Positions 2,540 to 30,374 of a stretch of DNA of 46,169 bases are shown one piece after another. Below the pieces are notes generated by a model. That model did not search any database and had not been told where the DNA came from. It saw only the letters and a list, made by a program, of their open reading frames with translations. The stretch comes from Porticoccaceae bacterium (GTDB lineage: Bacteria > Pseudomonadota > Gammaproteobacteria > Pseudomonadales > Porticoccaceae), in NCBI GenBank assembly GCA_028822155.1, contig JAPKEJ010000013.1:1-46169 (forward strand), written 5' to 3'. Within the stretch, counting starts at the first letter, position 1. Each line of letters starts with the position of its first letter. The position numbers were made by a program, and so were the translations under genes.

Positions 2540-5011
2540 ATGACAATCTCCGTTAAGAAAAAATCTAAATCCGCTTTGCGCGGTTCACCTATGCAGCGTT
2601 TTGCTATGGCCCCTCTGGCCTTGGCTATTGCCAATCTAATATTGCCTTCGACGGCTTTTGCGGATGAGGAGCATAAAACCATTGAAGAAATCACGGTAAC
2701 GGCCACTAAGCGTGCGATAGATCTTCAAAGTGCCGCCCAAAGTATCACGGCTTTTTCAGGTGACACCATCGAGACCATGGGCATTACCAGTATGAGAGAT
2801 TATATTAATGCTCTCCCTAGCGTCACGCTAACAGCAAGTCAACCTGGTAGAAACTCCTTGGCGATGCGCGGCATTTCATCGGGTTCAGCTGAATATTATA
2901 CCGATGGGCAGGTTGCTGTGTATCTCGATGATATTCCCATGACGACCAACTCACAGCAGGTCAGTGTTCGCCCCATTGATATGGAGCGGGTTGAATCCTT
3001 GCATGGTCCTCAAGGTACGCTTTATGGCTCTAGTTCTCAAACAGGCACTATTCGTTTAATCACCAACAAACCGAACCATGATGGTTTGTCCGGGGGTATT
3101 GAAGCAAGTTATGGCGCGACCGGAGGGGGCGACGATAGCTATGATCTTAATGGCCATTTAAATGTGCCATTAATTGAAGACGTTCTATCCATGCGTGCTG
3201 TACTTTACTCCTCAGAAGATGGCGGTTATGTCGATAATGTAGCGGGTGCAAGCTTAAGTGGTAACCACCGCAATGATGATCCTGGCTATAACGTTGTTGA
3301 TGAAAACCAAAATGAATATGGCACTACAGGCGGTCGTATAGCGTTTGCTTTAGATATCAATGAGAATTGGAGCGCGCTCTTAACAGTGGTGGCTGAAAAC
3401 AGTGAGTTAGATGGCTCCTGGGAAACTGACCCCTTTTTAGGTGACCATAAAGTGACGCGTTTTATCGACGAAAATCGAGAAGATGAATGGTTGGCTGTGG
3501 CTTTAACCGCAGAGGGTGATCTAGGCTTTGCTAATTTAACGGTCTCAGCGTCACATTTTGAACGCGACATTGCCTATAACTGGGATAATGACGCTTACAC
3601 GCAATACAAAGATCGTTACTACGGCAATGGGTATAATGCCTATGGTAGTTACTATGGCTTGTATAACACCGACTATAACCGTAGTTTCGTATTTAATGAG
3701 CAATCACAAGAGCGCGACACGGTTGAAATTCGTTTGGTTTCTCAAAGCGAGAGCCGATTGCAATGGACAGCCGGCTTATTCTACGAAGATGTATACGACG
3801 AATGGTTCTACGGTACCAATAATGAGAACCTAGGGGACACGACATCATGGGCGTATGCGCAAAATTATGCCTATTACTATGGCCTCGCAAATTACTACAA
3901 TAATTACACACCAAACTCAAATCAAGCTTACCCATTGCCTGACTCTGATTATGGCTACCTGAATATATTTGATCGCTCAGTCAAACAAACGGCTGTCTTT
4001 GCTGAGGTATCTTACGATATTACCAACGCGTTGACTTTGACGGGAGGATACCGTTGGGCTGAGTTTGATCGTGACGAGGTTGATTTTACTTACTACCCCG
4101 ATGGTTTGATAACTGCAGGCCTAGCCGATGGTGGTGATGGTGCTACACGCAGTAAAGGCAAAGACGATGATGCTATTTATAAAGTGTCACTGGATTATAG
4201 AATCAATGAAGATATCATGGTGTACGGCTTATACAGTCAGGGCTTTAGACTAGGCGGTTCAAATAGCCCGCGTGCGGTCGCTACGGGTCAGGTTGTAGCT
4301 AATTACGACTCTGATACGTTAGACAATTATGAGTTAGGTATTAAAAGTCAATGGTGGGAGAACCGGTTAAAGTTTAATGCGACACTATTCAAAATGGAAT
4401 GGAAGGATTATCAGCAAAGCACAACATTCCAGCAATGGTGGAATAGGGGTACGCTTAATGCGGGCGATGCGGAAATTACCGGTATTGAGTTAGACGTGGC
4501 TTTGCAAGCGACGGATAATCTGAAATTCAATTTGAGTTTGTTTTCTGCAGATGCCCAGTTTAAAGATGATATTTTCTTTAGTGCTACTGCAGATCCAGCC
4601 ACAGCTTCCCGAAACATTAGAAGCGGTATGGACTTACCTAGTTCACCTGACTTAAAAGGCCATATTAGTGTTTACTATGAGATCGATGATGTTCTAGGTG
4701 GTGATGCCTGGGTTTATTTTGACACTAGCTATCAAAGTGAGACCTGGAATGGCACGTCAGATATCGTGATTAATGATAAAAATGGTCTGTCTGGCACGTA
4801 TACCGTCAGTAATTTGTCGTTTGGTTTGGATCTGTCAGATGGCTTAAATGTCACTTTGATGATCAATAACGTTTTTGATGATAATGACTCTACGTATGTG
4901 TCTACATCCTATGGTGATTATGCAGATCTATTTGGCGATAATCGCTATCATAATGAACAAACTCTCGAGAGGCCGAGAACGGTTTGGCTGACAATGCGGA
5001 AGGCGTTCTAG
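2540..5011 (+). CDS. TonB-dependent outer-membrane receptor with two tyrosine-rich loops
   Basis: Outer-membrane active transporter powered by TonB-ExbBD. The 823-aa product has a Sec signal peptide ending ...STAFA|DEEH, a TonB-box-like segment EEITVTATKR near residues 49-58, a plug domain (about 60-170) and a 22-strand-barrel-type remainder ending in Phe (MRKAF), the usual outer-membrane signature. It resembles the large 'TonB-dependent receptor' group common in marine Gammaproteobacteria and Caulobacter-like taxa; the substrate is unknown. Oddity: residues 346-379 contain 11 Tyr in 34 positions, and residues 439-473 contain 11 Tyr in 35, both rich in Asn and Gly with few charges. These sit between barrel-like strands and are probably extracellular loops. 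The downstream gene is a propeller protein; a sulfotransferase and an Asp/Asn hydroxylase face it. A strong terminator follows the stop codon. Confidence 0.95.
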   Translation: MTISVKKKSKSALRGSPMQRFAMAPLALAIANLILPSTAFADEEHKTIEEITVTATKRAIDLQSAAQSITAFSGDTIETMGITSMRDYINALPSVTLTASQPGRNSLAMRGISSGSAEYYTDGQVAVYLDDIPMTTNSQQVSVRPIDMERVESLHGPQGTLYGSSSQTGTIRLITNKPNHDGLSGGIEASYGATGGGDDSYDLNGHLNVPLIEDVLSMRAVLYSSEDGGYVDNVAGASLSGNHRNDDPGYNVVDENQNEYGTTGGRIAFALDINENWSALLTVVAENSELDGSWETDPFLGDHKVTRFIDENREDEWLAVALTAEGDLGFANLTVSASHFERDIAYNWDNDAYTQYKDRYYGNGYNAYGSYYGLYNTDYNRSFVFNEQSQERDTVEIRLVSQSESRLQWTAGLFYEDVYDEWFYGTNNENLGDTTSWAYAQNYAYYYGLANYYNNYTPNSNQAYPLPDSDYGYLNIFDRSVKQTAVFAEVSYDITNALTLTGGYRWAEFDRDEVDFTYYPDGLITAGLADGGDGATRSKGKDDDAIYKVSLDYRINEDIMVYGLYSQGFRLGGSNSPRAVATGQVVANYDSDTLDNYELGIKSQWWENRLKFNATLFKMEWKDYQQSTTFQQWWNRGTLNAGDAEITGIELDVALQATDNLKFNLSLFSADAQFKDDIFFSATADPATASRNIRSGMDLPSSPDLKGHISVYYEIDDVLGGDAWVYFDTSYQSETWNGTSDIVINDKNGLSGTYTVSNLSFGLDLSDGLNVTLMINNVFDDNDSTYVSTSYGDYADLFGDNRYHNEQTLERPRTVWLTMRKAF

Positions 5012-5012
5012 C

Positions 5013-5046
5013 AAAAAGGGTGGGTAATATACCCACCCTTTTTTTT
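5013..5046 (+). terminator. Rho-independent terminator after the TonB-dependent receptor
   Basis: Directly after the receptor stop codon, GGGTGGGTA (5018-5026) pairs perfectly with TACCCACCC (5030-5038) around a 3-nt loop. The stem can be extended by A5/T5, and an uninterrupted run of eight T follows. The propeller gene beginning at 5113 may therefore have its own promoter or depend on read-through. Confidence 0.93.
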
Positions 5047-5112
5047 GCCTCATTTATCGTGGTATTATTTTTTTAAGTTGTCTTTTACGTTGGCCTTTAG
5101 AATTTTTTGTAT

Positions 5113-6039
5113 ATGGTTAAATTAGTAACGAGCGCTGTTGTTAGGGGGAGTCAGCAAGGTGATAGTCATGGCGGCGTTTACCTGATTGATTTCGACAATG
5201 AATTAGTGGAACAAAAGCTAGATTGGGATACCGTTAATATTGATTGGCGTGGTAGAGGTTGGGATAGAGGCCTTAGAGGAATCTGTTTTGACGATAACAA
5301 AATCTATATTGCAGCTAGTGATGAATTGTTTGCTTTTACACCAACGTTTGAGCTCATAGGTTCTTGGCGAAATCCTTATTTAAAGCATTGCCATGAGATA
5401 ACGGTTTTTAATCGCAAGATTTTTTTAACCTCAACGGGTTTCGATAGCATTTTGTCATTTGACCTTGATAAGCAAGTTTTTGATTGGGGCATGACGATTC
5501 AAAATAGGCAATTTAAGTTTAAGGGTAAACGTTTTGACCCTCAGGCAGATGATGGGCCTATGATGTTTAATAAACTGCATATCAACAATGTGTTTTGTAA
5601 TGAAAACGGTATGTATCTATCGGGCTTGAACTCGGGTGGAATGCTGCATTACAACGGTAGTGAAATCAATATGTCGGTTGAGCTACCACTAGGCACACAT
5701 AATGCGAGGCCTTTTAGGGATGGTGTGCTATTTAATGATACCAATGATGACGTGCTTCGTTATACCGGTAGAGGTGAAGGAGAGGAAGACAGGGCCATGG
5801 CAGTGCCTAAATATCTTGACAGTGAAATGACACATTTAGATAAAAGAGATAACGTGATGGCCAGGCCGGGGTTTGCAAGGGGGCTTTGTGTTTTGTCAAA
5901 TTCAGTTGTCGCCGGAGGATCTTCACCTTCAACAGTTACTTTGTATGATCTACAAAAAAACAAACAGATTGCGACCGCAAATATTAGTAATGATGTTCGT
6001 AATGGTATTCATGGCTTAGAAATGTGGCCATTTGATTGA
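5113..6039 (+). CDS. Conserved beta-propeller-like protein (TIGR03032/DUF4915-like), function unknown
   Basis: About 308 aa from the ATG at 5113 (an in-frame TTG lies 6 nt upstream; neither has a clear Shine-Dalgarno sequence). No signal peptide is visible, so it is probably cytoplasmic. The sequence shows repeating beta-strand units of the kind GICFDDNKIYIAASDELF and LHINNVFCNENGMYLSGL, plus a conserved-looking segment THNARPFRDGVLFNDT. These resemble NHL/SMP-30-like propellers and the TIGR03032 proteins that often sit beside sulfotransferases. It ends 16 bp before the convergent TPR-sulfotransferase gene. An accessory role with the neighbouring sulfotransferase and hydroxylase is inferred from position only; no catalytic residues can be assigned. 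Confidence 0.7.
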   Translation: MVKLVTSAVVRGSQQGDSHGGVYLIDFDNELVEQKLDWDTVNIDWRGRGWDRGLRGICFDDNKIYIAASDELFAFTPTFELIGSWRNPYLKHCHEITVFNRKIFLTSTGFDSILSFDLDKQVFDWGMTIQNRQFKFKGKRFDPQADDGPMMFNKLHINNVFCNENGMYLSGLNSGGMLHYNGSEINMSVELPLGTHNARPFRDGVLFNDTNDDVLRYTGRGEGEEDRAMAVPKYLDSEMTHLDKRDNVMARPGFARGLCVLSNSVVAGGSSPSTVTLYDLQKNKQIATANISNDVRNGIHGLEMWPFD

Positions 6040-6055
6040 TTAGCAGTGCATGGCA

Positions 6056-8074
6056 TTAAAGCCCTGCATTTCGTGATGCCTCAGGTAACTCAGTAATAAT
6101 ATAACCTAGTTGATCTTTCCATAAATCTAGATGCTGCTCGTAGCGTCGCCATTTACCTAGGGCCCCAGTGTAAATTGGCTGGCGGACCTGTTCTGAACTT
6201 GCCGTTTTTACCGCCCGCTCATTTTCGTAAAAGCGTAAACACTCTTCTTCAAAGGGTAGATTGCAAAAATCTAATATTTGTCTAACTTGATGCTCTAAAT
6301 CGGTGACAGTAACTTCGTAATGCACATCAAGTACCTCGCCGGGTAGCACGCTGTGCCAATGCTTCATCATTAAGTCATATTCTTTGTAATAATGAGCCAG
6401 GTCAAACATATCGTAAGTGAAGTTTTGGCCTCGCCCAAACAGCTGTTTGTAACCGCCTAGGCAGCTATCAAAGGGGTGGCGTCGCGCATTAATTATTTTT
6501 GCATTTGGTAAAATAGTTTTGATAAAACCGACATGGGAAAAGTTATTAGGTAGCTTGTCTGTAAAAAATGGTTTATTAGTGATTCGGTGTCTTTGGCTTT
6601 CTTCCATATATTGCTTGCCATAAGCAACTAAATCTTTATTACGCAGATCGGCAACAGCTTCGGGGTAGCGAATACTGTCGTTTCTATAACGACCAATATG
6701 ATCAGATATTTTATTGACTAATGGTAATTCTGAAGTGCCTTCTACTTGGCTATGGCTGGCAATAATTTGTTCGATAAGGGTTGATCCAGATCGTGGAAGC
6801 CCAACAATAAAAATAGGATCGGGTGCCGAATGGCCTACGCCTCTCTTTTGGGCCATAAAGGTCTGGCTAAAGGTGTTTTTAATAGCGGTATTTCTACCTT
6901 CCATTTCCAATGGGTCGTGCTCAACCGTCATCCTTTGTTTTTGATTACCTTCGTGATAATAGTGCCAGGCGCTATCATAATCGTTAACGTCTTCCAACGA
7001 TTTGGCGAGAGCAAAGTTGAAGTGAATTTTTGAGATTTCAGAAAGCTCGGGCTGTTGAAGCTGGGCTTTCATAGCGTCAACCTCTTCATTTTTAAATTTA
7101 AAAACTTTTAGGTTAGCCATACTCCAATAAACTTCACCTAGATCTGGTCTGAGTTTGATGGCATCTCGATATGCTTTGAGGGCGCCTGTTTGGTCACCTA
7201 TGGTTTTTAGTTCATGCGCATAAGATGTATTAACATGAGGAGCATCAGGTTTGATAGCTAGTGATACTTTAAAAGCTTCGGCGCTTTTCTCGGGATACAT
7301 GGCTCTGCCATAAGCATTCCCTAGACCAGTCCAGCCATCAGGATTTTTAGAGTCTAAGCGGGTGCATTTTTCAAACGTCTTAATAGCATCAACGTATTTA
7401 TTTTGCTCCATGAGTACACACCCCAACATATGCCAGGCTTCATAGTAGTTAGCGGATATTTGTGTCGCTCGTCTTAGCAAGGCTTCTGCGTCATTACAAT
7501 TATTTTTTTCTTGCCAATAAGCACCGGCTAAATGCCGCAGTGCATTGATGTTGTCAGGGCTTCTTTTTAATACAGATTTAAAGGCTGCAATGGCGTCGTC
7601 ATGCTTACCCGCGCGCTGATATTCTATGCCTTTAATAACATCAGCTCTATCGGAGTCTTGTTCTATGTACTCTTTAAAGGCTAAATCAGCATCCGCACCC
7701 CGTCCTTCTGCGGCAAGCGCTTCACCTAGTTTTTTATTTGCATGTGCTAGCGTGGGCAGAAGGGCAATAGCTTTCTCAAAAAGCGGTATGGCTTCGTTGA
7801 AGCGAGATTGTAAGGATAAAATACTACCTAAGTCTTCATAGAGGTGCGGGAAGTCCGGGTCTAGTTCAATGGCAAATTTTAATTGCTCCTCAGCTTCAAT
7901 GAGCCTGTTTTGCGCTATTAATGAGTGACCGAGTAATCTCAAATGATGGGTGCAGCCTTGATGCTGAGTTAAATAGTCACGGCATAGCTCTTCTGCACGT
8001 AAAGGCCTATTTGAGCGAAGAAATTCAATCGCTTCCTGAAGACTTTTATTTTTTATGTTTTGAGTTGATTTCAT
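6056..8074 (-). CDS. TPR-repeat sulfotransferase (PAPS-dependent type)
   Basis: Predicted to transfer a sulfuryl group from PAPS to a protein, peptide or other acceptor. The 672-aa protein has about nine tetratricopeptide repeats over residues 40-330 (for example DAIAAFKSVLKRSPDNINAL). A C-terminal Sulfotransfer_1/3-type domain follows, with the 5'-phosphosulfate loop PRSGSTL at 427-433 and a later 3'-phosphate-site-like INARRHPFDSCLGG. No signal peptide is visible; it is cytoplasmic. This TPR-sulfotransferase architecture is widespread in marine Proteobacteria, and the C-terminal fold is related to tyrosylprotein sulfotransferases, but its acceptors are mostly unknown. It lies 11 bp downstream of the beta-hydroxylase on the same strand, so the two are probably co-transcribed, and it is convergent with the receptor-propeller pair. 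The tyrosine-rich receptor loops next door are an attractive acceptor (inference). Confidence 0.93.
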   Translation of the reverse strand: MKSTQNIKNKSLQEAIEFLRSNRPLRAEELCRDYLTQHQGCTHHLRLLGHSLIAQNRLIEAEEQLKFAIELDPDFPHLYEDLGSILSLQSRFNEAIPLFEKAIALLPTLAHANKKLGEALAAEGRGADADLAFKEYIEQDSDRADVIKGIEYQRAGKHDDAIAAFKSVLKRSPDNINALRHLAGAYWQEKNNCNDAEALLRRATQISANYYEAWHMLGCVLMEQNKYVDAIKTFEKCTRLDSKNPDGWTGLGNAYGRAMYPEKSAEAFKVSLAIKPDAPHVNTSYAHELKTIGDQTGALKAYRDAIKLRPDLGEVYWSMANLKVFKFKNEEVDAMKAQLQQPELSEISKIHFNFALAKSLEDVNDYDSAWHYYHEGNQKQRMTVEHDPLEMEGRNTAIKNTFSQTFMAQKRGVGHSAPDPIFIVGLPRSGSTLIEQIIASHSQVEGTSELPLVNKISDHIGRYRNDSIRYPEAVADLRNKDLVAYGKQYMEESQRHRITNKPFFTDKLPNNFSHVGFIKTILPNAKIINARRHPFDSCLGGYKQLFGRGQNFTYDMFDLAHYYKEYDLMMKHWHSVLPGEVLDVHYEVTVTDLEHQVRQILDFCNLPFEEECLRFYENERAVKTASSEQVRQPIYTGALGKWRRYEQHLDLWKDQLGYIITELPEASRNAGL

Positions 8075-8085
8075 GGTGATTTCTA

Positions 8086-8655
8086 TTATTTTTTGGGTGA
8101 ATGCTTTGTTAGATTTTGTGGAGGTACATAATCAAAGATAAAAGAAATTCTATCTTCGTTGCTCATATTTAGAACACTATGCTTTTTCTGATTGTTAAGC
8201 TCATAAGCATGACCGACTTCAAAAGGGTAAGGGCGGCCATCGATGGTGAATCGAACGGCAGGATTTGTAGTGATAGGTACGTGAATTCTATGGCCAATAT
8301 GAAAAGAGTGAAGTGTATCTTTGTGTGGTCTAATTTGGCCGTTTGCTTTTAGCTTGGCAGCCATTGCGCGTAATAGTGTTCCGCCAGGCGGGTAATGTTT
8401 TTCTAAGATGGCATTAATGATCGGCATAGCAGTTTCTGACAATCTATCCCAGCCCATGTCTTTATGAATATCACCTTTAGGCCAGTCTTCTTCACAAAAT
8501 AGCATTACGATTGACTCTGTATCTTTATGTACCTCGTAGGCTTTTTGTCTAAGGTTTTGCTCTGTCCAAGCTTCAGGAGGCTGACTAAGTATGCACTGCT
8601 TTAAGTCATCAATTAAAAACTTCCCTAATGGCTTTTGAGCGACGTCTATATCCAT
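8086..8655 (-). CDS. Aspartyl/asparaginyl beta-hydroxylase family Fe(II)/2-oxoglutarate oxygenase
   Basis: Predicted to hydroxylate aspartyl/asparaginyl or related side chains using Fe(II), O2 and 2-oxoglutarate. Numbered from an upstream in-frame TTG at 8697, the iron ligands are readable as His125 and Asp127 in RPHKD and His173 in KKHSVLN, with Arg183 in EDRISF a likely 2-oxoglutarate contact; the core has the cupin-like PF05118 pattern. I chose the ATG at 8655 (189 aa), preceded by AAAGAGA close upstream, over the TTG at 8697 (203 aa), which has no ribosome site. No signal peptide is visible. It is the first gene of a two-gene unit with the TPR-sulfotransferase. The pairing of an Asp/Asn hydroxylase with a sulfotransferase suggests successive modification of a common peptide or protein (inference). 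Confidence 0.85.
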   Translation of the reverse strand: MDIDVAQKPLGKFLIDDLKQCILSQPPEAWTEQNLRQKAYEVHKDTESIVMLFCEEDWPKGDIHKDMGWDRLSETAMPIINAILEKHYPPGGTLLRAMAAKLKANGQIRPHKDTLHSFHIGHRIHVPITTNPAVRFTIDGRPYPFEVGHAYELNNQKKHSVLNMSNEDRISFIFDYVPPQNLTKHSPKK

Positions 8656-8697: not shown

Positions 8698-12390
<3,693 letters not shown>

Positions 12391-16718: not shown

Positions 16719-18047
16719 ATGTCTGAAAAAGAACAAAAAACAGTAGGCATTCACGAGTTATACCGCAAGAACCCGCAAGAGGCAGACAAGCAGCTTTGGG
16801 GTAGAGAAGTCGACCCAGGCACACGGCGTGGGTTTCTAAAAAAAAGCGGATTGGCCGCGATGGTGGCCTTTATAGGTTCAAGCATACCCTTTGCCAGTAA
16901 AATGCCCGGAGGGCTAATTCCGGCAGCGTTGGCTGATACCACAGAGGCCTTCGGCATCGACGGCAAGGAGGGCTTGAGAATACTCAATGATCGGCCCATC
17001 AACGCCGAAACACCGCCGCATTTACTCGATGATAATTTGACCCCAGCCAAATATTTTTTCGTACGTAACAATGGTATTCCACCCGCCTTAGAGACGATCG
17101 GTGATCCCGCAAAATGGATGCTGGAAATAGGGGGTGAATCTTGCCTCAAACCGACAAAATATACCCTCGCGCAACTGAAGGAAAAATTTAAGCATCACAG
17201 CTATGCCCTAACTCTGGAATGTGGGGGCAATGGCCGCAGTGAGTTTGATCCCCCAGCGAAAGGCAACCAGTGGTCTACTGGCGCTGTCGGGTGTGCTCAG
17301 TGGACAGGTGTCAGACTCAAGGATGTATTAAAAGACTGTGGTATTGCCGATGACGCTGTTTATATTGGCTACTATGGTGCAGACGCACATCTTACCGGTG
17401 ACCCGCGGAAGCAATCTATTTCTCGAGGGGTGCCAATGATTAAGGCTCTTGAGGACGAAAGTTTGATTGCTTGGGGGTTTAATGGAGAGGACATACCCTA
17501 CCAAAATGGCTACCCCTTACGGCTGGTAACAGGTGGCTGGCCGGCCTCAACCAGTGGTAAGTGGCTTAACAAAATAGTCGTCCGAAACCAGATTCACGAC
17601 GGTGCAAAAATGGCGGCACCATCTTACAGCGTACCCAAGAGGTCTGTCGCACCGGGTACCAAAGTTGCTAATGACGACATGGTTACTATTGAATCTATGC
17701 CGGTCAAATCGTTAGTTACGTTCCCAAAGAGCGGTATTACTCACTCTTTAACGGAGAGTCTGACCTGCCGTGGACATGCCTGGGCTGGCGATATCAGTGT
17801 ACAGAATGTCGATGTGTCAATTGACTTTGGTGCAACTTGGCAGCCGGCTGATGTCAAAAACCCTATTAATCGGCTGGCATGGCAGCATTGGCAGGCAACG
17901 CTAAAGTTTCCGCAGCCGGGTTATTATGAGGTTTGGGTGAAAGCAACTGATTCTGAAGGCAAGTCGCAACCGATGGTAGTCCCCAACTGGAATCCCAAGG
18001 GTTACCTGAACAATGCCTGCCACCGCATTGCTGTGCAAGTGGTGTAA
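16719..18047 (+). CDS. Tat-exported molybdopterin sulfite dehydrogenase, catalytic subunit (SorA/SorT/SoxC type)
   Basis: Oxidises sulfite to sulfate in the periplasm and passes electrons to a c-type cytochrome. The 442-aa protein has a twin-arginine signal (Arg36-Arg37 in TRRGFLKKSG followed by a hydrophobic stretch), an Oxidored_molyb domain and a C-terminal Mo-co dimerisation domain (about 300-440). The molybdenum-ligating Cys is Cys168 in LECGGNGRSEF. The start is the ATG at 16719 with GGAGG six nucleotides upstream. The stop is 2 bp before the cytochrome gene, so the two are translationally coupled. Within this window it is the natural sink for the sulfite released by Xsc at 24.4-26.2 kb. 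Sequence alone does not separate SorA from SorT or SoxC; the absence of other sox genes argues against a thiosulfate SoxCD pair. Confidence 0.9.
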   Translation: MSEKEQKTVGIHELYRKNPQEADKQLWGREVDPGTRRGFLKKSGLAAMVAFIGSSIPFASKMPGGLIPAALADTTEAFGIDGKEGLRILNDRPINAETPPHLLDDNLTPAKYFFVRNNGIPPALETIGDPAKWMLEIGGESCLKPTKYTLAQLKEKFKHHSYALTLECGGNGRSEFDPPAKGNQWSTGAVGCAQWTGVRLKDVLKDCGIADDAVYIGYYGADAHLTGDPRKQSISRGVPMIKALEDESLIAWGFNGEDIPYQNGYPLRLVTGGWPASTSGKWLNKIVVRNQIHDGAKMAAPSYSVPKRSVAPGTKVANDDMVTIESMPVKSLVTFPKSGITHSLTESLTCRGHAWAGDISVQNVDVSIDFGATWQPADVKNPINRLAWQHWQATLKFPQPGYYEVWVKATDSEGKSQPMVVPNWNPKGYLNNACHRIAVQVV

Positions 18048-18049
18048 CC

Positions 18050-18412
18050 ATGCTCACTACCTATAAACATGGCATCCTGGCCGTTGCTTCAGCGGCACTG
18101 CTGTTAGTGTCAATTGTGATGTCGGTTCCGGCCAGATCTGCAGACATTGACCCAGCTAGCGGTCTAGTGATAGCTGATGGCTGGGAGGCAGTACGAGCCA
18201 ATTGTACGGTCTGCCATTCGGCAAAATTTATCACGTTTCAACGAGGGGATCGCGATAGCTGGAAGTCGATGATCAGGTGGATGCAAAAAACCCAGGGCTT
18301 ATGGTCATTTGATGAAAAGACTGAAGACACCATTTTGAGTTATCTCGCCGCTAACTATCCTCCTGGGAAATCCTCTAGACGCAAAAATCTATCCCCGGCA
18401 GATCTGCCTTAA
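18050..18412 (+). CDS. Monohaem c-type cytochrome subunit of the sulfite dehydrogenase (SorB-like)
   Basis: Accepts electrons from the molybdenum subunit encoded immediately upstream. A 120-aa exported protein with a signal peptide ending about residue 31 (VPARSA|DID) and one haem-binding motif, Cys52-Thr-Val-Cys55-His56. A Met in WKSMIRWMQKTQGLW (74 or 78) is the likely sixth ligand. Size and position match SorB-like cytochromes. The start codon lies 2 bp after the preceding stop. Confidence 0.88.
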   Translation: MLTTYKHGILAVASAALLLVSIVMSVPARSADIDPASGLVIADGWEAVRANCTVCHSAKFITFQRGDRDSWKSMIRWMQKTQGLWSFDEKTEDTILSYLAANYPPGKSSRRKNLSPADLP

Positions 18413-23331: not shown

Positions 23332-24336
23332 CTAGGTCACCTGGCAGGCTGTGATGGCGGCAACGCCATATATATCCTCTGCGCTACAACCGCGAGACAA
23401 ATCGTTGACCGGCTTTGCCAAACCCTGGAGAAGAGGGCCGTAGACGGGAATGTTAGCTAACCTCTGGACAAGTTTATAGGAAATGTTGGCTGAGTTGAGG
23501 TCGGGGAAAATAAGAACATTTGCTTCGCCTTTCAATGCACTGTCGGGGTATTTTTTTGCAGCGATACTAGGCACTAGTGCCGCATCTGCCTGTATTTCGC
23601 CATCGACAATGATATCGAGCCCTTCAGCCGCTACTTTTAATACTGTCAGAGACGCTGCTCGTCTAATCTTATCTAACGATTCGTGCTGGGCACTGCCGTT
23701 TGTAGCAAAAGATAAAAAGGCAACCTTGGGTATCTCACCGGTTAATGTTTGGTAGTTATTTGCCGATGCGATGGCTATATCGACTAACTGTTCTGCATCT
23801 GGGTTTGGTATAACCGCGCAATCAGCAAACAGGAGTGAGGAGTGACCCGCAGGAGAGGGGTTTGCGAGGTCCAGCAGCATACTGCTACTCGCCATTTTTA
23901 TACCTGGGGCGGTGCCAATTACCTGTAATGAGGCGCGAAGCACATCACTAGTTGAGGCAACACTTCCGGCGATGAGGCCATCGACTAATCCTTGGTGGCA
24001 CATCATATTAGCGAAATACAGTCTGTCCTGCATAACGACGGTGGCAGCATCCATTGACATACCTTTATGCTTGCGCATTTCGAAAAAAATACGAGTAAAA
24101 TCAGTCGCTAAGGACGATAACATAGGGTCGATTATATTGAAATTGAGTGCATCTATATCAGCAGAGTTACATGCTTTGGTTATTTCTGACTCACTGCCTA
24201 ATACAGTGACTTGAGCAATCCCATCGTTAACAATTCTGTGAGCAGCCTGAATGACACGGGGGTCTTGGCCTTCTGCAAAAACGAGCTTGGCTTTAGTAGC
24301 TTTCGCTCTCTCAACAATGGTATTTAATATAGACAT
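23332..24336 (-). CDS. pta: Phosphate acetyltransferase (Pta)
   Basis: Converts the acetyl phosphate made by Xsc to acetyl-CoA. A 334-aa single-domain PTA_PTB protein (the short class I form, lacking the N-terminal domains of the E. coli enzyme). Readable motifs include KLVFAEGQDPRVIQAA near the N terminus, DGLIAGSVASTSDVLRA around residue 118, and the C-terminal NISYKLVQRLA followed by GPLLQGLAKPVNDLSRGCS. The start is the ATG at 24336 with CGGAGA upstream. It lies 72 bp downstream of xsc in the same direction. Pairing xsc with pta is the standard arrangement in C2-sulfonate degradation. It is the last gene of the probable taurine operon. Confidence 0.95.
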   Translation of the reverse strand: MSILNTIVERAKATKAKLVFAEGQDPRVIQAAHRIVNDGIAQVTVLGSESEITKACNSADIDALNFNIIDPMLSSLATDFTRIFFEMRKHKGMSMDAATVVMQDRLYFANMMCHQGLVDGLIAGSVASTSDVLRASLQVIGTAPGIKMASSSMLLDLANPSPAGHSSLLFADCAVIPNPDAEQLVDIAIASANNYQTLTGEIPKVAFLSFATNGSAQHESLDKIRRAASLTVLKVAAEGLDIIVDGEIQADAALVPSIAAKKYPDSALKGEANVLIFPDLNSANISYKLVQRLANIPVYGPLLQGLAKPVNDLSRGCSAEDIYGVAAITACQVT

Positions 24337-24408
24337 AGAGGTTTCTCCGACAGCAGGTCAGTGTACCCTAAGTAATGCTCGCAAAAGAAAGGGTACCCCT
24401 CATTGTTA

Positions 24409-26172
24409 CTAAACGTAGTCTTTGTACTTTTCAAGGTAACGTACTGGCTTGGACAACGCATCACGTCTGAACGGGTCACCCAGTTCTCGAGTACACATAA
24501 TCTCAATCACCGTACTTTTACCTTCATTCATTTGAAGATCTATGGCTTTCTTGAGCGCCGGACCAACATCTTCTAGTTTATCAACAACAATACCTTCCGC
24601 TCCCATCGCTTGAGCAATGCCAGCCCAGCTTTCACTGACCAGTTCAGCGGCAACAAAGCGGCGATCATAAAACTCAACTTGGTTCTTCTTTTCTGCGCCC
24701 CAGTCACGGTTGTGGAATACCACTGCTGTAACAGCAATATCATGACGCACGGAGGTCATTAGTTCAGACATGCTCATACCCCAAGCGCCGTCTCCAGCAT
24801 AGGCAATAGCGGGCCGGTGCGGTGATGCCGCTTTTGCACCAATGATAGTGGGCAGGGCATAGCCACAGTTGCCAAAACTCATAGGGGCAAAGAAACTACG
24901 CGCTTTTTCAAAGCGCAAATAGCTGTGAGCTACAGAGTTAATGTTACCGATATCCGTAGAAACCATGACATCTTCTGGCATAGCCTTTTCTAGTTCTCGC
25001 AGGACTTGCCTAGGATGTAACCATTCGCCATCCTCGTCAGCAGCCTCTTCAATCATATCTAAGCTGTAGGGGTCTCGTTCATGGGTCCAATCGTCTAGCT
25101 CGCTCTCCCAAGCTTGCTTTTGGGCAGTGATTTCAGTGAGACGCTCGCCTTTATTGTCATGACAGTCGAGATTTAACTTGGATAGGCGTTCGGTCAAGGC
25201 AATAGCGGTTGCTTTAGCGTCACCGCATATACCGACAGAGATCTTTTTTACCAAACCGAGCATTTTATGATCTGCATCAATCTGAATGATTTTTGCATTT
25301 TCTGGCCAATACTCTAATTCATACTGGGGAAGGGTACCAAAAGGTCCTAGGCGTGAACCTAACACCAAGACTACGTCGGCTTTGGATATGAGTTTCATAC
25401 CTGCTTTTGATCCTTGGTAACCTAGTGGACCGCACCATAGAGGGTGACTGGCTGGAAATGAGTCATTGTGCTGATAACTGTTAACGACCGGTGCGCCTAG
25501 TAATTCAGCGAGGGCTTTGCATTCTTCAACGGCATCGGCCATGACAACACCGCCACCCGATATCATGACAGGAAATTTCGCGGTAGATAATAGATACGCC
25601 GCTTCTCCCAGGCTCTTTTCACCTCCGGGACCACGATCCAACCGCTGGGGCTGTGGAATTTCTATATCGATATCACCATAAAAGAAATCGCGAGGAATAT
25701 TTAATTGAGTGGGGCCCATTTCTGACATGGCTCGATCAAAGCATCTAGCAGTAAACTCGGCGATACGCTTAGAGTTGTTAACATGCCCTTGGTATTTGGT
25801 GAATTCTTGGAACATGGGTAACTGGTGAGCTTCTTGAAACCCGCCCAAACCAATGCTCATAGTGCCTGCTTCGGGCGTAATCATAACTACAGGAGAGTGC
25901 GCCCAGAAAGCCGCAGCAACACCAGTAACGCAGTTTGAAACGCCAGGACCATTTTGACCAATGACAACGCCATGATTACCAGAGGCTCGGGCGTAACCAT
26001 CAGCCATGTGGGCCGCGCCCTGTTCGTGGACCACTGGAATAAGTTCAATACCTGCCGGGGCAAAAATATCCATCGCATCCATAAATGCCGAACCCATAAT
26101 GCCAAAGATTTTAGTTACGCCATTGGCGACTAGTGTTTCAACGAATGCTTCGCTAGGTGTCATACGTGCCAT
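24409..26172 (-). CDS. xsc: Sulfoacetaldehyde acetyltransferase (Xsc)
   Basis: Thiamine-diphosphate enzyme that cleaves the C-S bond of sulfoacetaldehyde with phosphate, giving acetyl phosphate and sulfite. The 587-aa length fits Xsc. Glu50 in VVHEQGAAH is the cofactor-activating Glu, the central domain carries MISGGGVVMAD, and the thiamine-diphosphate/Mg motif runs from GDGAWGM (460-462) to Asn488 in VFHNRDWGAEKKNQ. Xsc-specific stretches such as FGIMGSAFMDAMDIF and TRELGDPFRRDALSKP distinguish it from acetolactate synthase. An AGGGC ribosome site lies upstream of the ATG. It sits between the AGCS symporter (177 bp upstream) and pta; with tpa it defines a taurine-dissimilation cluster. The sulfite formed is presumably oxidised by the dehydrogenase at 16.7-18.4 kb. 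Confidence 0.96.
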   Translation of the reverse strand: MARMTPSEAFVETLVANGVTKIFGIMGSAFMDAMDIFAPAGIELIPVVHEQGAAHMADGYARASGNHGVVIGQNGPGVSNCVTGVAAAFWAHSPVVMITPEAGTMSIGLGGFQEAHQLPMFQEFTKYQGHVNNSKRIAEFTARCFDRAMSEMGPTQLNIPRDFFYGDIDIEIPQPQRLDRGPGGEKSLGEAAYLLSTAKFPVMISGGGVVMADAVEECKALAELLGAPVVNSYQHNDSFPASHPLWCGPLGYQGSKAGMKLISKADVVLVLGSRLGPFGTLPQYELEYWPENAKIIQIDADHKMLGLVKKISVGICGDAKATAIALTERLSKLNLDCHDNKGERLTEITAQKQAWESELDDWTHERDPYSLDMIEEAADEDGEWLHPRQVLRELEKAMPEDVMVSTDIGNINSVAHSYLRFEKARSFFAPMSFGNCGYALPTIIGAKAASPHRPAIAYAGDGAWGMSMSELMTSVRHDIAVTAVVFHNRDWGAEKKNQVEFYDRRFVAAELVSESWAGIAQAMGAEGIVVDKLEDVGPALKKAIDLQMNEGKSTVIEIMCTRELGDPFRRDALSKPVRYLEKYKDYV

Positions 26173-26349
26173 GATATTGCCCTGTTTTAAATACTAGATT
26201 GTCTGTTTATATAGCCAAAAATTAAGTCACCATAATTCTGAGCGTAGCTTAGTAAGTTGGTAGAGTAAAAGATAGAATCAGTTTATACCGCTCTATTATT
26301 CCAGCCTAGATTAGTTTGTTACTTAGATTTGATTGTTACTCCTTAGATA

Positions 26350-27915
26350 TTATTTCCCATCAATATACTTACGGTTGTATTTACTTAGCTCTCTTTTTAC
26401 CAAGGGAGCGAGCATGTACAGACCAATTATATTGGGCACACAGATTAGAAATACTAGGGCGTCAGAAAAGTCTAGAACGGCGTCGAGCTGAATGCTGCAA
26501 CCTAGCGCGACAAACAAACAAAAAACCAACTTAAACAGGTTGCTCGCCCATACCTTTTCACCCACTAAGTAAGTCCAACCCTTAAGTCCGTAGTATGCCC
26601 AAGCAATCATTGTCGAAAACGCAAAAAGCATACCGGCGATAGCGATCAGATAAGGAGACCAAGAGATGTTTCTAGCAAAGGCGGCAGATGTCATTTCAAT
26701 GCCTCCAAGACCTTCGTTGAACGCCGGGTCATAGTAGAACGTAGTCACGATGACTAGCGCCGTTAGAGTGCAAATAACGACGGTATCGATAAAGGGCTCT
26801 AGCAATGACACATAACCTTCGGTAATAGGTTCTTTTGTGCGCACAGCAGAGTGCGCGATAGAAGCCGACCCGATACCCGCCTCATTTGAAAAGACCGCGC
26901 GCTGGAAGCCAACGATCATGACGCCAATGGCGCCGCCACTCATGCCTTCTGGACTAAATGCACCACTAATAATAGCATTGATAGCATAAGGGATAGCTTC
27001 GTAGTTCATGCCAATAATAGTGATGGCACTGACACAGTAGAGTATTGCCATGAAGGGGACGACCTTACTGGTCACTTTGGCAATACTTTGGATGCCACCC
27101 AATATGACTAAGCCAACGACACCGCCGAGAATAAGCCCGAAAAGCCAAGCCTTGTCGGCAAACCAGCTTCCGTCTGCGCCACCGGTGACATTCACAAATT
27201 GCATGTAGGCTTGGTTTGATTGGAACATATTGCCAATACCTAAACAGCCCAGGACTATACCTAACGCATAAAATCGGCCAATAAAGACGCCGGCTTTATT
27301 CCAACCTTTTTCGGCAAAGGCATATTGTAAATAATACATAGGACCGCCCGAGACCGATCCGTCTGCATTTTCTCGTCGCAGCAGCACGCCTAAGGTGCAC
27401 TCGATAAACTTAGTCGACATGCCCAGTATTCCCGCGATAATGATCCAAAAGGTTGCTCCTGGACCACCTACGGATATTGCAACGGCCACGCCAGCAATGT
27501 TACCTATGCCAACGGTGCCTGATACAGCAGTGGTCAGCGCCTGAAAGTGAGTTACCTCGCCTGGGTCTTTAGATTTTGAATCACTTCCGCGTATTAGCTT
27601 AATAGCGTGACTAAAGCCGCGCAAATTAATGAATTTAAAATACAGAGTGAAATAGACCGCAGCAAAGACCAACCAGGCTACAACTAGGGGTACATCAGTG
27701 CCAAATACGGACACGCTATAAAAAACGATAGCAGAGATAAAGCTTGTGATGGGCTGCACAGAATTGTTGATGAATTCGTCAATACCCTGCTGTGCAAACG
27801 CCATAGGTGAAAAAAATGAAACAATAAGAAGGCTTAAATAAGAGCAAAGGGAAGGTTTAAGTCTCAGCAACTTGTTTTTAGCCTTAGTTGCCACGATTAC
27901 GTTTTCTTTGTTCAT
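26350..27915 (-). CDS. AGCS family sodium:alanine/glycine symporter
   Basis: Inner-membrane sodium-coupled amino-acid transporter of 521 aa with about ten to eleven hydrophobic spans. PF01235 motifs are present: TAVSGTVGIGNIAGVAVAI, FIECTLGVLLRR, GGPMYYLQ and FSNEAGIGSASIAHSA. It lies 50 bp downstream of the exporter and upstream of xsc, in the same orientation. In the cluster it could import taurine itself, since no tauABC or TRAP genes are present here, or it could handle the alanine that Tpa produces from pyruvate (both inference). Family members usually carry alanine or glycine, so taurine specificity must be tested rather than assumed. Confidence 0.92.
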   Translation of the reverse strand: MNKENVIVATKAKNKLLRLKPSLCSYLSLLIVSFFSPMAFAQQGIDEFINNSVQPITSFISAIVFYSVSVFGTDVPLVVAWLVFAAVYFTLYFKFINLRGFSHAIKLIRGSDSKSKDPGEVTHFQALTTAVSGTVGIGNIAGVAVAISVGGPGATFWIIIAGILGMSTKFIECTLGVLLRRENADGSVSGGPMYYLQYAFAEKGWNKAGVFIGRFYALGIVLGCLGIGNMFQSNQAYMQFVNVTGGADGSWFADKAWLFGLILGGVVGLVILGGIQSIAKVTSKVVPFMAILYCVSAITIIGMNYEAIPYAINAIISGAFSPEGMSGGAIGVMIVGFQRAVFSNEAGIGSASIAHSAVRTKEPITEGYVSLLEPFIDTVVICTLTALVIVTTFYYDPAFNEGLGGIEMTSAAFARNISWSPYLIAIAGMLFAFSTMIAWAYYGLKGWTYLVGEKVWASNLFKLVFCLFVALGCSIQLDAVLDFSDALVFLICVPNIIGLYMLAPLVKRELSKYNRKYIDGK

Positions 27916-27965
27916 AATCTTACCTTGCAGTGATTATTGGAAGTTTAGTTAAGGTGTCATTGACC

Positions 27966-28955
27966 CTAAAGCATAACCCAAGCCAAAACCAACCCGCCAA
28001 GGAATAGGCTCTCAGACAAAACCATAGCGACCGGTCGCCAGCCGATATTGATCAGCCCTTTAAACGAGGTTTTCATCCCTAAGGCTGCGATAGCTACCAC
28101 GAAGCAATCTTGAGATGTCTGGTTCATAACCTCGCCGGCGGCTTCGGGGATCCAGCCAATATTATTAACAATGGCGAGCACTACAAAGCCTAATAAAAAG
28201 TAGGGTGGTGATAGTTTAGTGCGACCTTCGGAAGCTGCACGCTGTTTTGCAAAGATCATCAAGAATATCCAAGCCATGGGTATTAATAAGGCGACTCGAA
28301 GCATTTTAACAATCATAGCGACATAACCGACGTCTTCAGAGATGGAGTATCCAGCGCCGATAACATGAGATACATCATGGATAGATCCGCCAATAAAAAT
28401 ACCCATCTGCTCCGTGTTTAAGTCTAAAAAGCTGGCTAGAACGGGGTAGACGACCATGGCAATAGCGCCAAAAGTTGCCACCATGACAACGGTTAACAGA
28501 GTGTAATGCTCTACTTCTTTGCTTTTAGGCATTACGGAGGACAGAGTCATCGCTGCAGAGATGCCACAGATCCCGACTGCGCCGCCAGATAGCATGCCAA
28601 AGCGATAGTCGAGCTTAAGAGCCTTGGCGATGAGTGCACCAAACAAGATAGTGGCGAACATGCAGCCAACCACAACTAAAGCGGTTACCCAGCCCAGGGC
28701 AAGAACATCGCCAAACAGAATTTTTGAACCGAGTAAAATAACCCCAAAGCGTAATACTGTGCTTGAGCAAAAGTCTATTCCTGGAATGGAATATTCAGAT
28801 TCACTAAGAAAATTAACTGACATTCCTAATATGAGCGCGAACAACATGGTGGGCGCGCCATAGTTCAAAGCTAAAAATTTGGAGGCCAAAGCAACTAAAA
28901 TACAGGCAATTATTCCGCGAACTTTATTTTTGTGGCGGGATAAAGAGCTATCCAT
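27966..28955 (-). CDS. YeiH/SuyZ-type putative sulfate exporter (UPF0324)
   Basis: Membrane protein of 329 aa with about ten hydrophobic segments and the UPF0324 (PF03601) pattern: ILGMSVNFLSE, LRFGVILLGSKI, GGAVGICGISAAMTL and GGSIHDVSHVIGAGY. Family members linked to sulfonate clusters (SuyZ in Paracoccus pantotrophus, TauZ elsewhere) are proposed to export sulfate. Here it sits 21 bp downstream of tpa and 50 bp upstream of the AGCS symporter, so it is co-transcribed with both. Export of sulfate or sulfite produced from sulfoacetaldehyde is the natural role. Since sulfite oxidation by the Tat-exported dehydrogenase is periplasmic, the cargo of this transporter may be sulfite rather than sulfate (inference). 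Confidence 0.9.
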   Translation of the reverse strand: MDSSLSRHKNKVRGIIACILVALASKFLALNYGAPTMLFALILGMSVNFLSESEYSIPGIDFCSSTVLRFGVILLGSKILFGDVLALGWVTALVVVGCMFATILFGALIAKALKLDYRFGMLSGGAVGICGISAAMTLSSVMPKSKEVEHYTLLTVVMVATFGAIAMVVYPVLASFLDLNTEQMGIFIGGSIHDVSHVIGAGYSISEDVGYVAMIVKMLRVALLIPMAWIFLMIFAKQRAASEGRTKLSPPYFLLGFVVLAIVNNIGWIPEAAGEVMNQTSQDCFVVAIAALGMKTSFKGLINIGWRPVAMVLSESLFLGGLVLAWVML

Positions 28956-28976
28956 GTTTGTATCCTTAGGGATCGT

Positions 28977-30374
28977 TTATAGAGAATTTGTCGCTAACGC
29001 ATTGTCAATTGCGTCGACTATATCATCAATATCTCTTCGGGTGGCAATGAGCGCAGGGCTCAAGCAGAGAGTGTTATTAAAGTCTTGAAAACTACGGTTA
29101 GTACGGCCGATAAGAACCCCCTGTTGCATACAATGAGTTACTATTTTCATGGCATAACTTTCATGTATAGGCTGTTTAGACTGCCGATCTTGAACGAGTT
29201 CTACTCCTGCAAATAAACCTTTACCACGGACGTCGCCGACCACAGTATATTTGTCTTTTAGCTCTAAAAGGCGTTGATCTAGATGATTACCCATTTGCAC
29301 GACGTTATCTAACAGATTCTCTTCTTCAATAATCGCTACGTTAGCCAGTCCAGCCGCAGGCCCGGCAGTGCAGCCTCCGAAGGTGCTAATGTCTCTAAAG
29401 TAACCCAGTTCGCCACTGTCCTCCAAAGCGAACTGATCGAATACGGCATCTGTAGTAATAGTGCATGATATGGCTGCATATCCACTGGCAAGGCCTTTGG
29501 CCATGGTTACCATGTCGGGGCTAACCCCGTAGTGTTGAAAGCCAAACCATTTGCCCGTGCGTCCCAAGCCACAAACAACTTCGTCGATATGCAGTAGTAC
29601 GTCGTATTTTTTACAGATCTCTTGGATGATCGGGAAGTATTCAGGCACTGGAGGAATAACGCCTCCACCGGCAGTAATGGGTTCTAACACCACAGAGCCT
29701 ACAGTATCGGGACCCTCCCGCAAAATAGCTGTTTCTAGATCTTTGGCGCACTCAATATCACAGCTGCCATAGGTTTTCCCAAATGGGCAGCGATAGCAAC
29801 AGCAGTGGCTAAATTCAGAAAACCCGGGGGTAAAGGGACCATATTGCTCTTTTCGTTGGGAATGTCCCGAAGAGCTAAGTGCCGCGATGGTGGTTCCATG
29901 ATAGTCACGATCACGGAAGATAACCTTATGTTTGCGTCCATCGCCATTGATATGAGCAAGCTGGCGAACCATTTTATAGGCCTTTTCGTTAGCTTCTGAA
30001 CCTGAATTAGAATAATAAACCTTACCTTTGCCAGCCCCCATTTCAGGTATTTTAGTCAATAACTTCTCGGCAAATAGCGCGCCTGGAATGCTACCGGCGC
30101 TGTTGGCGAAATAACACATTTCCATTAGCTGGTCACGGACCGCATTGGCGATCTTTTCACGCCCATACCCAACATTTACCGACCAGACTCCACCCGAGGT
30201 CGCATCAAGGTACTCATTGCCCTTAATGTCGGTTACGCGCATGCCTATCCCGCTTTTTATGATCAGTGGGTCAGTCGTTTTTAAGTTGTTGTGGGGCGTC
30301 AGGTGGTGCCAAACGTTGGCACGATCTGTGCGGATAATATCTGTTGTCTCAGCTGAAATATCAATAGTGTTCAT
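28977..30374 (-). CDS. tpa: Taurine--pyruvate aminotransferase (Tpa)
   Basis: PLP enzyme moving the amino group of taurine to pyruvate, giving sulfoacetaldehyde and alanine. A 465-aa class III (omega) aminotransferase: YSNSGSEANEKA at 121-132, DYHGTTIAALS at 158-168, HIDEVVCGLGRTG with Asp264, and Lys293 in MAKGLASGYA forming the Schiff base. A Cys-rich insert, CCCYRCPFGKTYGSCDIEC at 191-209, matches the Tpa subgroup. The ATG is preceded by GGAG seven nucleotides upstream. It is the promoter-proximal gene of the tpa-exporter-symporter-xsc-pta run. Alanine must be recycled to pyruvate for sustained flux; no alanine dehydrogenase is in this window. Other omega-transaminases are similar, but the xsc context strongly favours Tpa. 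Confidence 0.92.
   Translation of the reverse strand: MNTIDISAETTDIIRTDRANVWHHLTPHNNLKTTDPLIIKSGIGMRVTDIKGNEYLDATSGGVWSVNVGYGREKIANAVRDQLMEMCYFANSAGSIPGALFAEKLLTKIPEMGAGKGKVYYSNSGSEANEKAYKMVRQLAHINGDGRKHKVIFRDRDYHGTTIAALSSSGHSQRKEQYGPFTPGFSEFSHCCCYRCPFGKTYGSCDIECAKDLETAILREGPDTVGSVVLEPITAGGGVIPPVPEYFPIIQEICKKYDVLLHIDEVVCGLGRTGKWFGFQHYGVSPDMVTMAKGLASGYAAISCTITTDAVFDQFALEDSGELGYFRDISTFGGCTAGPAAGLANVAIIEEENLLDNVVQMGNHLDQRLLELKDKYTVVGDVRGKGLFAGVELVQDRQSKQPIHESYAMKIVTHCMQQGVLIGRTNRSFQDFNNTLCLSPALIATRRDIDDIVDAIDNALATNSL

Follow-up and report, generated by a model that had tools for sequence, protein, structure and literature searches.

In the portions of the literature drawn on here, RaxX is the one peptide described as undergoing tyrosine sulfation in bacteria; it is 60 residues long and secreted with a type I exporter (PMC6637879). 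Its enzyme RaxST is presented as a TPST-related, cytoplasmic bacterial sulfotransferase that acts before export, and the Golgi-anchored tyrosylprotein sulfotransferases TPST1 and TPST2 as enzymes known to modify surface receptors (PMC9372746). Here we compare with these systems a locus of a Porticoccaceae bacterium (assembly GCA_028822155.1; 2.44 Mb, 108 contigs, 89% complete), contained in 46,169 nucleotides of contig JAPKEJ010000013.1 (hereafter the window). An 823-residue TonB-dependent receptor carrying two Tyr clusters is encoded at 2540–5011 (+ strand), followed by a predicted β-propeller protein (5113–6039, + strand), a 672-residue tetratricopeptide repeat (TPR) sulfotransferase (6056–8074, − strand) and an Asp/Asn β-hydroxylase-fold dioxygenase (8086 to ∼8655, − strand). 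The original prediction for this locus proposed that the receptor loops, or a peptide taken up by the receptor, are sulfated on Tyr and hydroxylated on Asp or Asn, with the propeller protein assisting and a divergent S9 peptidase processing peptides. Receptor sulfation emerged from our analysis well supported as a prediction; the roles given to the hydroxylase and the peptidase did not.

We consider it probable, by a modest measure, that each TPR-sulfotransferase sulfates loop tyrosines of the adjoining receptor before export. A cytoplasmic tyrosylprotein sulfotransferase would then be dedicated to the receptor encoded beside it; the receptor, still unfolded, would be gripped by the TPR domain of the enzyme while the catalytic domain transferred sulfate from 3′-phosphoadenosine 5′-phosphosulfate (PAPS) to Tyr in the future extracellular loops. 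The sulfated receptor would then leave the cytoplasm through Sec and reach the outer membrane, into which it would insert and where the sulfated, strongly negative aromatic loops may form or tune a ligand-binding mouth. Two variants are envisaged: (i) a receptor whose loop strictly follows D-Y-[S/T]-x-Y, together with a sulfotransferase (the pair clade), and (ii) that of the window, to which hydroxylase and propeller are added and in which the loops are Tyr-rich and more variable.

The likeness to RaxST-RaxX consists of a TPST-related sulfotransferase with the (here putative) substrate gene adjacent. The two differ in that the gene next to the enzyme here encodes an outer-membrane receptor and the enzyme itself carries TPR repeats; moreover, a search for a conserved small precursor found none. 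With TPST1 and TPST2 the enzyme shares the whole matched catalytic domain, the conserved Arg, Glu at +21, Lys and Ser and, in the pair clade, the Asp-Tyr context; those Golgi-anchored enzymes have broad substrates, whereas here an enzyme gene lies beside each receptor gene, and TPST1 and TPST2 are not known to contain TPR. A TPR superhelix joined to a transferase domain is also the architecture of O-GlcNAc transferase (OGT), to which the TPR part is a sequence match, although the catalytic fold and chemistry of OGT presumably differ from those of a sulfotransferase; by analogy, the TPR domain of the sulfotransferase would have a substrate-holding role. The receptor itself has the same fold and plug as siderophore-type TonB-dependent receptors (FyuA, FhuE and FptA folds), from which it is set apart by its Tyr-rich loops and linked enzyme.

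Linkage of enzyme and receptor was assessed in a survey of 115 genomes of the order and in a second sample. The thresholds used for these and the following counts (7 Tyr, 2 kb, 3.5 kb) were set with the data already in view, and because the sequences are related all p values are too small. In the survey, a sulfotransferase was found in 40 of the 115 genomes (E up to 1e-20); the regions retrieved around the gene (80, plus 4 from the window's own genome) reach E ∼8e-49, weaker places being excluded. After 18 of 96 sulfotransferases too close to a region edge were set aside, a receptor lay within 3.5 kb of 61 of the 78 that were flanked by 3 kb or more on each side. Sorted by similarity to the window enzyme, the counts were 39/41 (at least 300 bits), then 17/28, 5/7 and 0/2, and the genomes of the two close exceptions (L115 and L181) each contain a clade receptor at another locus (L210 in G010 and L194 in G008). 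Among the receptor matches listed, the 28 best places were all in sulfotransferase-positive genomes.

For the second sample, species genomes were scanned with the aligned survey enzymes, which gave at least 588 confirmed relatives, with 79 loci examined; since the alignment was built from survey enzymes this sample is not a blind one, and three of the 79 loci (L265, L278 and L322) duplicate records already included in the survey. The records are titled Gamma- and Alphaproteobacteria (Woeseiaceae, Halieaceae, Lysobacterales, Caulobacter, Kordiimonas and others). Cultured strains carrying such a locus include Kordiimonas sediminis KCTC 42590 (L306), Dyella sp. EPa41 (L307), Glaciecola sp. 33A (L313) and, with the full cassette, gammaproteobacterium HTCC2148 (L271). 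Every locus flanked by 3 kb on each side (51/51) had a receptor within 3.5 kb (49/49 without the shared loci). The receptor was the sole near-universal neighbour, found within 6 kb of the enzyme at 114 of 137 loci. In the window's own genome, all five TPR-sulfotransferase places adjoin a TonB receptor. The co-conservation of receptor and enzyme anticipated by the original prediction was thus found on the whole (5/5, 61/78 and 51/51). Furthermore, enzyme and receptor distances were correlated (r = 0.876; 57 pairs from 21 genomes) well beyond 1000 within-genome shuffles (mean 0.183, maximum 0.558), as fits one-to-one pairing. One of the shared records, L322, is titled as a Klebsiella pneumoniae metagenome-assembled genome; its sulfotransferase is 100% identical to that of G008 contig 36 (L184), and the title looks wrong.

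Linked receptors, defined as those within 2 kb of a sulfotransferase, were also richer in Tyr. The 154 receptor open reading frame (ORF) matches were reduced to 144 by removing those below 550 aa and identical sequences, and 29 of these lay near a region edge with their neighbourhood unread; control receptors came from the first 60 of 81 picked places, among the receptor matches listed. The best 35-residue window averaged 7.21 Tyr in 61 linked receptors and 5.35 in 54 unlinked ones (p 1.4e-8), and total Tyr was 4.96% and 4.43%, respectively (p 0.005). Trp alone among 13 further residues was higher, weakly (1.67 versus 1.44%, p 9e-4); Phe was not, and Ala and Gln touched p 0.04. In the receptor tree, 48 sequences form one main clade (support 1.00), of which 45 have at least 6 Tyr and 36 at least 7 in the best window, and separate linked clades are also present. 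The enrichment held outside the main clade, where 25 linked receptors exceeded 71 not known to be linked (46 unlinked and 25 at region edges) both in the best window (6.16 versus 4.86, p 2.5e-4) and in total Tyr (5.14% versus 4.21%, p 5e-5). In the scan, 58 of 67 paired receptors had at least 7 Tyr and 66 of 67 at least 6 (56/65 and 64/65 without the shared loci). Eight of the 54 unlinked receptors reach 7 Tyr, five of them members of the main clade.

The same pattern is seen among the paralogs of the window's own genome. The five receptors that adjoin an enzyme are the five most similar to the window receptor; they contain 4.8–6.8% Tyr, with best 35-residue counts of 11, 9, 11, 8 and 5, whereas 11 other receptors of the genome (some cut by contig ends, and leaving out a place with a 137-aa frame) contain 3.3–4.2% Tyr, with best counts of 4–5. 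Contig C40 holds a paralogous full cassette of hydroxylase, receptor, propeller and sulfotransferase; the other three loci, one of which is near a contig end, showed a receptor and a sulfotransferase only.

The window receptor meets the plug (PF07715) and barrel (PF00593) domain definitions of a TonB-dependent receptor, has a FyuA-like fold and begins, by eye, with a signal peptide-like N-terminus. Of its 56 Tyr, 11 fall in residues 346–379 (3575–3676, + strand) and 11 in residues 439–473 (3854–3958, + strand), exactly as first counted; a 35-residue window with at least 11 Tyr arose in 34 of 20000 shuffles of the protein, and the real sequence has two that do not overlap. In an AlphaFold2 model (mean predicted local distance difference test score 81.8; 50–78 as block means in the loops, where confidence is low), strand 331–349 leads through a long loop at 350–381 to strand 382–401, and strand 407–428 through a long loop at 429–470 to strand 471–493, while the opposite side consists of short turns. 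The extracellular side was assigned by strand parity and loop length. Because the long loops sit opposite short turns, both Tyr clusters are modelled outside the barrel, mostly on consecutive long extracellular-side loops (350–381 for the first and 429–470 for the second), which is the placement the original prediction called for.

Residue conservation within the first loop was examined in the main-clade receptors of survey and scan combined (115 aligned sequences, 105 at <90% identity), of which the pair clade makes up 57 (52 at <90%). The loop opens with D349, directly after strand 331–349. In the pair clade it reads D349 (56/57), Y350 (57/57), Ser or Thr (52/57), any residue, Y353 (57/57), and neither Tyr is ever replaced by Phe or Trp. 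Over the whole set, Y353 is Tyr in 104 of 114 sequences with no Phe or Trp, and Y375 is Tyr in 91 of 113 with five Phe; these two are the conserved loop Tyr of the window receptor. In Tyr-dominated columns, Phe or Trp occupied 16 of 342 aromatic cells in the loops and 292 of 1624 elsewhere (p 1.4e-11, the cells not being independent). This strictness points to use of the Tyr hydroxyl rather than of mere aromaticity. An Asp directly before the acceptor Tyr is described for most moderate-affinity TPST substrates (PMC9372746), and in plants DY is named as a conserved motif for the sulfation of peptides (PMC11534595, PMC7913133). In our data the Asp-Tyr rule is confined to the pair-clade loop only. 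The motif DY[ST]xY occurs in 25 of 30 scan receptors without a hydroxylase or propeller gene nearby and in 3 of the 71 receptors not known to be linked, and it is this split by hydroxylase or propeller presence that defines the two variants. In part of the pair clade (L034, L111–L113, L117, L121, L124, L128 and L210) the Tyr loop also contains two Cys (YY[IL]C and a later Cys), perhaps a disulfide closing the loop.

The sulfotransferase consists of TPR repeats, resembling by sequence those of OGT and designed TPRs, followed by a PF13469 domain (E 1.2e-47) with the 5′-phosphosulfate-binding (5′-PSB) motif PRSGSTL. The TPST1/2-related region spans residues 420–610 (6245–6817, − strand). R428, G430, S431 and T432 are invariant in 35 of 35 aligned sulfotransferases, as are E449 (21 residues past R428, as in TPST1), K507 and S626; this Glu, Lys and Ser match the catalytic Glu and the active-site Lys and Ser of TPST-like enzymes. 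The residue between the 5′-PSB Arg and Gly varies, so that the pattern R[ST]G[ST][ST] is absent from 27 of 99 relatives, and Glu at the 21-residue spacing is present in 71 of the 72 that match it. In the alignment with 5wrj, HMMER inserts a three-residue gap before the Glu; the ungapped spacing is 21 in both. Among proteins of solved structure, the domain matches TPST1 (E 6e-9) and TPST2 (2e-4) by sequence over its whole length. The TPST relationship first proposed, and the two-gene unit of hydroxylase and TPR-sulfotransferase (PF05118, and PF13469 with TPR, both on the − strand), are borne out. A Glu or His base between the PAPS motifs is described in PMC6637879. No signal peptide was seen by eye in the sulfotransferase, hydroxylase or propeller, and the three should therefore be cytoplasmic. 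PAPS is cytoplasmic. The sulfotransferase ORFs of L126, L127 and L163 are 791 aa long; in L126 and L127 the frame as listed overlaps the receptor gene by 285 bases, and the true start may be later.

Several observations weigh against receptor sulfation. Of the linked receptors, 24 of 61 fall below 7 Tyr, a supported linked clade of seven has no member above 6, and 7 Tyr are attained by 3 of the 71 receptors that lie outside the main clade without known linkage. Taken as a whole, the comparison remains favourable to the original prediction in that Tyr-rich loops are not equally common away from the enzyme (58/67 versus 3/71), the exceptions being these 24 linked receptors and the 8 of 54 unlinked ones. 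Acidic context is not enriched over all Tyr (Asp or Glu at −1, 0.142 linked versus 0.152 unlinked), and plug residue Y128 is as strict as the loop Tyr, without Phe or Trp. DY[ST]xY is found in only 1 of 37 scan receptors with a hydroxylase or propeller nearby and is absent from the window receptor, whose candidate sites (Y353, Y375 and the second cluster) are thus less certain than those of the pair clade. Tight linkage alone may explain the co-divergence of enzyme and receptor. The small-molecule sulfotransferase CurM (4gbm; E 8e-9) rivals TPST1 in the strength of its match, which covers part of the catalytic domain. Lastly, adenosine 5′-phosphosulfate (APS) kinase, the PAPS-reductase/CysD (CysD/CysH) family and the ATP sulfurylase PF01747 were not detected in the window's own genome at 89% completeness, where CysN was found only below cut-off, and two further enzyme-positive genomes (G059 and G086) are without APS kinase. 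We count this as a real gap in the evidence; with ∼11% of the genome absent, it may be a gap of the assembly. In favour of sulfation, APS kinase is present in 37 of 40 enzyme-positive against 49 of 75 enzyme-negative genomes (p 0.0013), including all ten other genomes with a close sulfotransferase.

What the enzyme modifies could also be a ligand (a small molecule, siderophore, glycan or peptide), produced or changed inside the cell, that the Tyr-rich receptor binds and imports. Linkage of receptor and enzyme fits any ligand pathway, CurM, which we take to act on a polyketide, is a relative of the domain, and some catabolic families are commoner near linked receptors: any of 11 N-compound families occurs near 56 of 127 linked and 12 of 46 unlinked receptors (p 0.036, for a pooled set that was self-chosen with 17 families tested). 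We regard ligand sulfation as unlikely, since the receptor is the constant partner while ligand-handling genes vary, no other family being near more than 43 of the 137 loci, and since it leaves the invariant loop D-Y and the Tyr columns without Phe unexplained; for a peptide ligand in particular, no conserved small ORF was found (1126 ORFs at 134 loci). It is quite improbable, in our estimation, that the loops are unmodified aromatic cages (cation-π to amines, or stacking on sugars) and that the enzyme acts on another surface molecule of the pathway. Tyr-rich loops could bind ligands unaltered, the slightly higher Trp of linked receptors agrees with this, and amine-type catabolic genes do neighbour some loci; yet a cage should accept Phe or Trp, which occur at neither Y350 nor Y353 in 57 receptors, Phe is not enriched in linked receptors, and an unrelated target gives no reason for near-universal linkage to a receptor.

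Chance or common descent is a further reading, in which a receptor subfamily is Tyr-rich by inheritance and the neighbouring enzyme is irrelevant. Much of the signal does come from one clade of 48 members; we nevertheless find this highly improbable, because linkage occurs in records titled both Gamma- and Alphaproteobacteria, several separate linked receptor clades exist, and Tyr is enriched outside the main clade as well. If sulfation of the adjoining receptor holds, protein tyrosine sulfation of the RaxST type would extend to receptors integral to the outer membrane, each served by its own enzyme, and exact residues are available to test it. We put at about even the chances that these loci represent a class of sulfated outer-membrane receptors, widespread in Proteobacteria and so far unrecognised, with dedicated TPR-type enzymes and pre-export sulfation of invariant loop Tyr, a second class adding a 2-oxoglutarate hydroxylase and a propeller. 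Among the titles listed from the open PMC subset, preprints excluded, none dealt with sulfated outer-membrane receptors. Were it true, tyrosine sulfation would be a common bacterial surface modification setting ligand (or phage) recognition, and the loci of at least 588 relatives would encode receptor-specific sulfation, a new layer of control for nutrient uptake and surface recognition.

The hydroxylase and propeller genes stand as partners of the system at the level of gene linkage only: they share a cassette with the close sulfotransferases and with receptors of one subclade. In the survey the hydroxylase was found in 15 genomes and the propeller in 11. A close hydroxylase (at least 48% identity) was present in 11 genomes, a close propeller (at least 46%) in 10 and a close sulfotransferase (E up to 1e-130) in 11; close hydroxylase and sulfotransferase share all 11 genomes, 10 of them also with the propeller (hydroxylase-propeller p 1.5e-13). 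Among the 79 scan loci, whose flanks are often short, 31 have the hydroxylase, 36 the propeller and 24 both. The hydroxylase start at 8655 was inferred from relatives, most of which open with MDI or MNI (the listed ORF begins at TTG 8697), and the propeller start at ATG 5113 agrees with relatives (listed ORF, TTG 5107). Numbered from TTG 8697, H125-x-D127, H173 and R183 are invariant in 12 of 12 aligned hydroxylases, and we take H-x-D…H…R to be candidate Fe(II) and 2-oxoglutarate ligands. The propeller has no Pfam or NCBIfam match, and a fold search returned only generic β-propellers (template modelling score ∼0.5). The proposed hydroxylation of receptor Asp or Asn drew no support: at the thresholds chosen, only residues 327 and 737 separate hydroxylase-linked receptors from the pair clade, and these two, neither of which lies in a Tyr loop, are unconvincing as targets. 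At the level of a guess, hydroxylase and propeller may serve to modify either the receptor or its ligand a second time.

Within 6 kb of the enzyme at the 137 loci, the most frequent families were the enzyme itself (133), the receptor (114), the propeller (43) and the hydroxylase (33), the next reaching 22; of the 25 most frequent families, 20 were named by Pfam, four by our own profiles and one by eye. The S9 peptidase encoded divergently to the receptor (148–2184, − strand), which resembles the dipeptidyl-peptidase Dpp5 and the lasso-peptide isopeptidase Atxe2, both below cut-off, was dropped as a member of the system: no S9 peptidase is among these 25 families, and conservation alongside the sulfotransferase is lacking. 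Nor did a candidate precursor emerge for a small sulfated peptide of the RaxX kind, as no family of small ORFs (20–150 aa) recurred in at least four of 134 loci at E 1e-4 among the 1126 small ORFs compared. None of the 25 families looks like the RaxAB type I exporter, for which no aimed search was made.

Catabolic neighbours are variable and include Rieske oxygenase, MTHFR, GCV_T, BCCT, aminotransferase and ABC transporter parts. MTHFR (16 versus 0) and Rieske oxygenase (12 versus 0) were found near linked receptors only (127 linked, 46 unlinked), with the opposite tendency for the ABC ATPase (3/127 versus 7/46). A cationic ligand, as these genes might suggest, is weakly indicated by the self-chosen pooled set and p value given above, and was kept as a lead only. 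A parallel with tryptophan halogenases was considered, since their genes lie beside TonB receptors in L329, L330 and L328 (the L328 receptor by eye only), and was rejected: at four loci the receptors beside halogenases are not Trp-rich (1.4 and 1.1% Trp in two identified by profile, 0.8% in a third by eye).

Elsewhere in the window, organosulfonate breakdown genes occupy 16719–18412 and 23332–30374, with Xsc sulfoacetaldehyde acetyltransferase (TIGR03457), phosphate acetyltransferase and an AgcS-type carrier above cut-off, and a SorA/SorT-like sulfite dehydrogenase, a class III aminotransferase and a YeiH-like exporter below it. Together with the sulfate-activation genes not found, they suggest that the organism may draw sulfur from taurine-like compounds. 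After the cassette, a glycoside hydrolase family 2 (GH2) β-galactosidase-like gene is located at 9193–12390, and L250 has, close to its own cassette, a gene that looks similar by eye (L250:13503–16010); the ligand of this subgroup may thus be a sugar compound.

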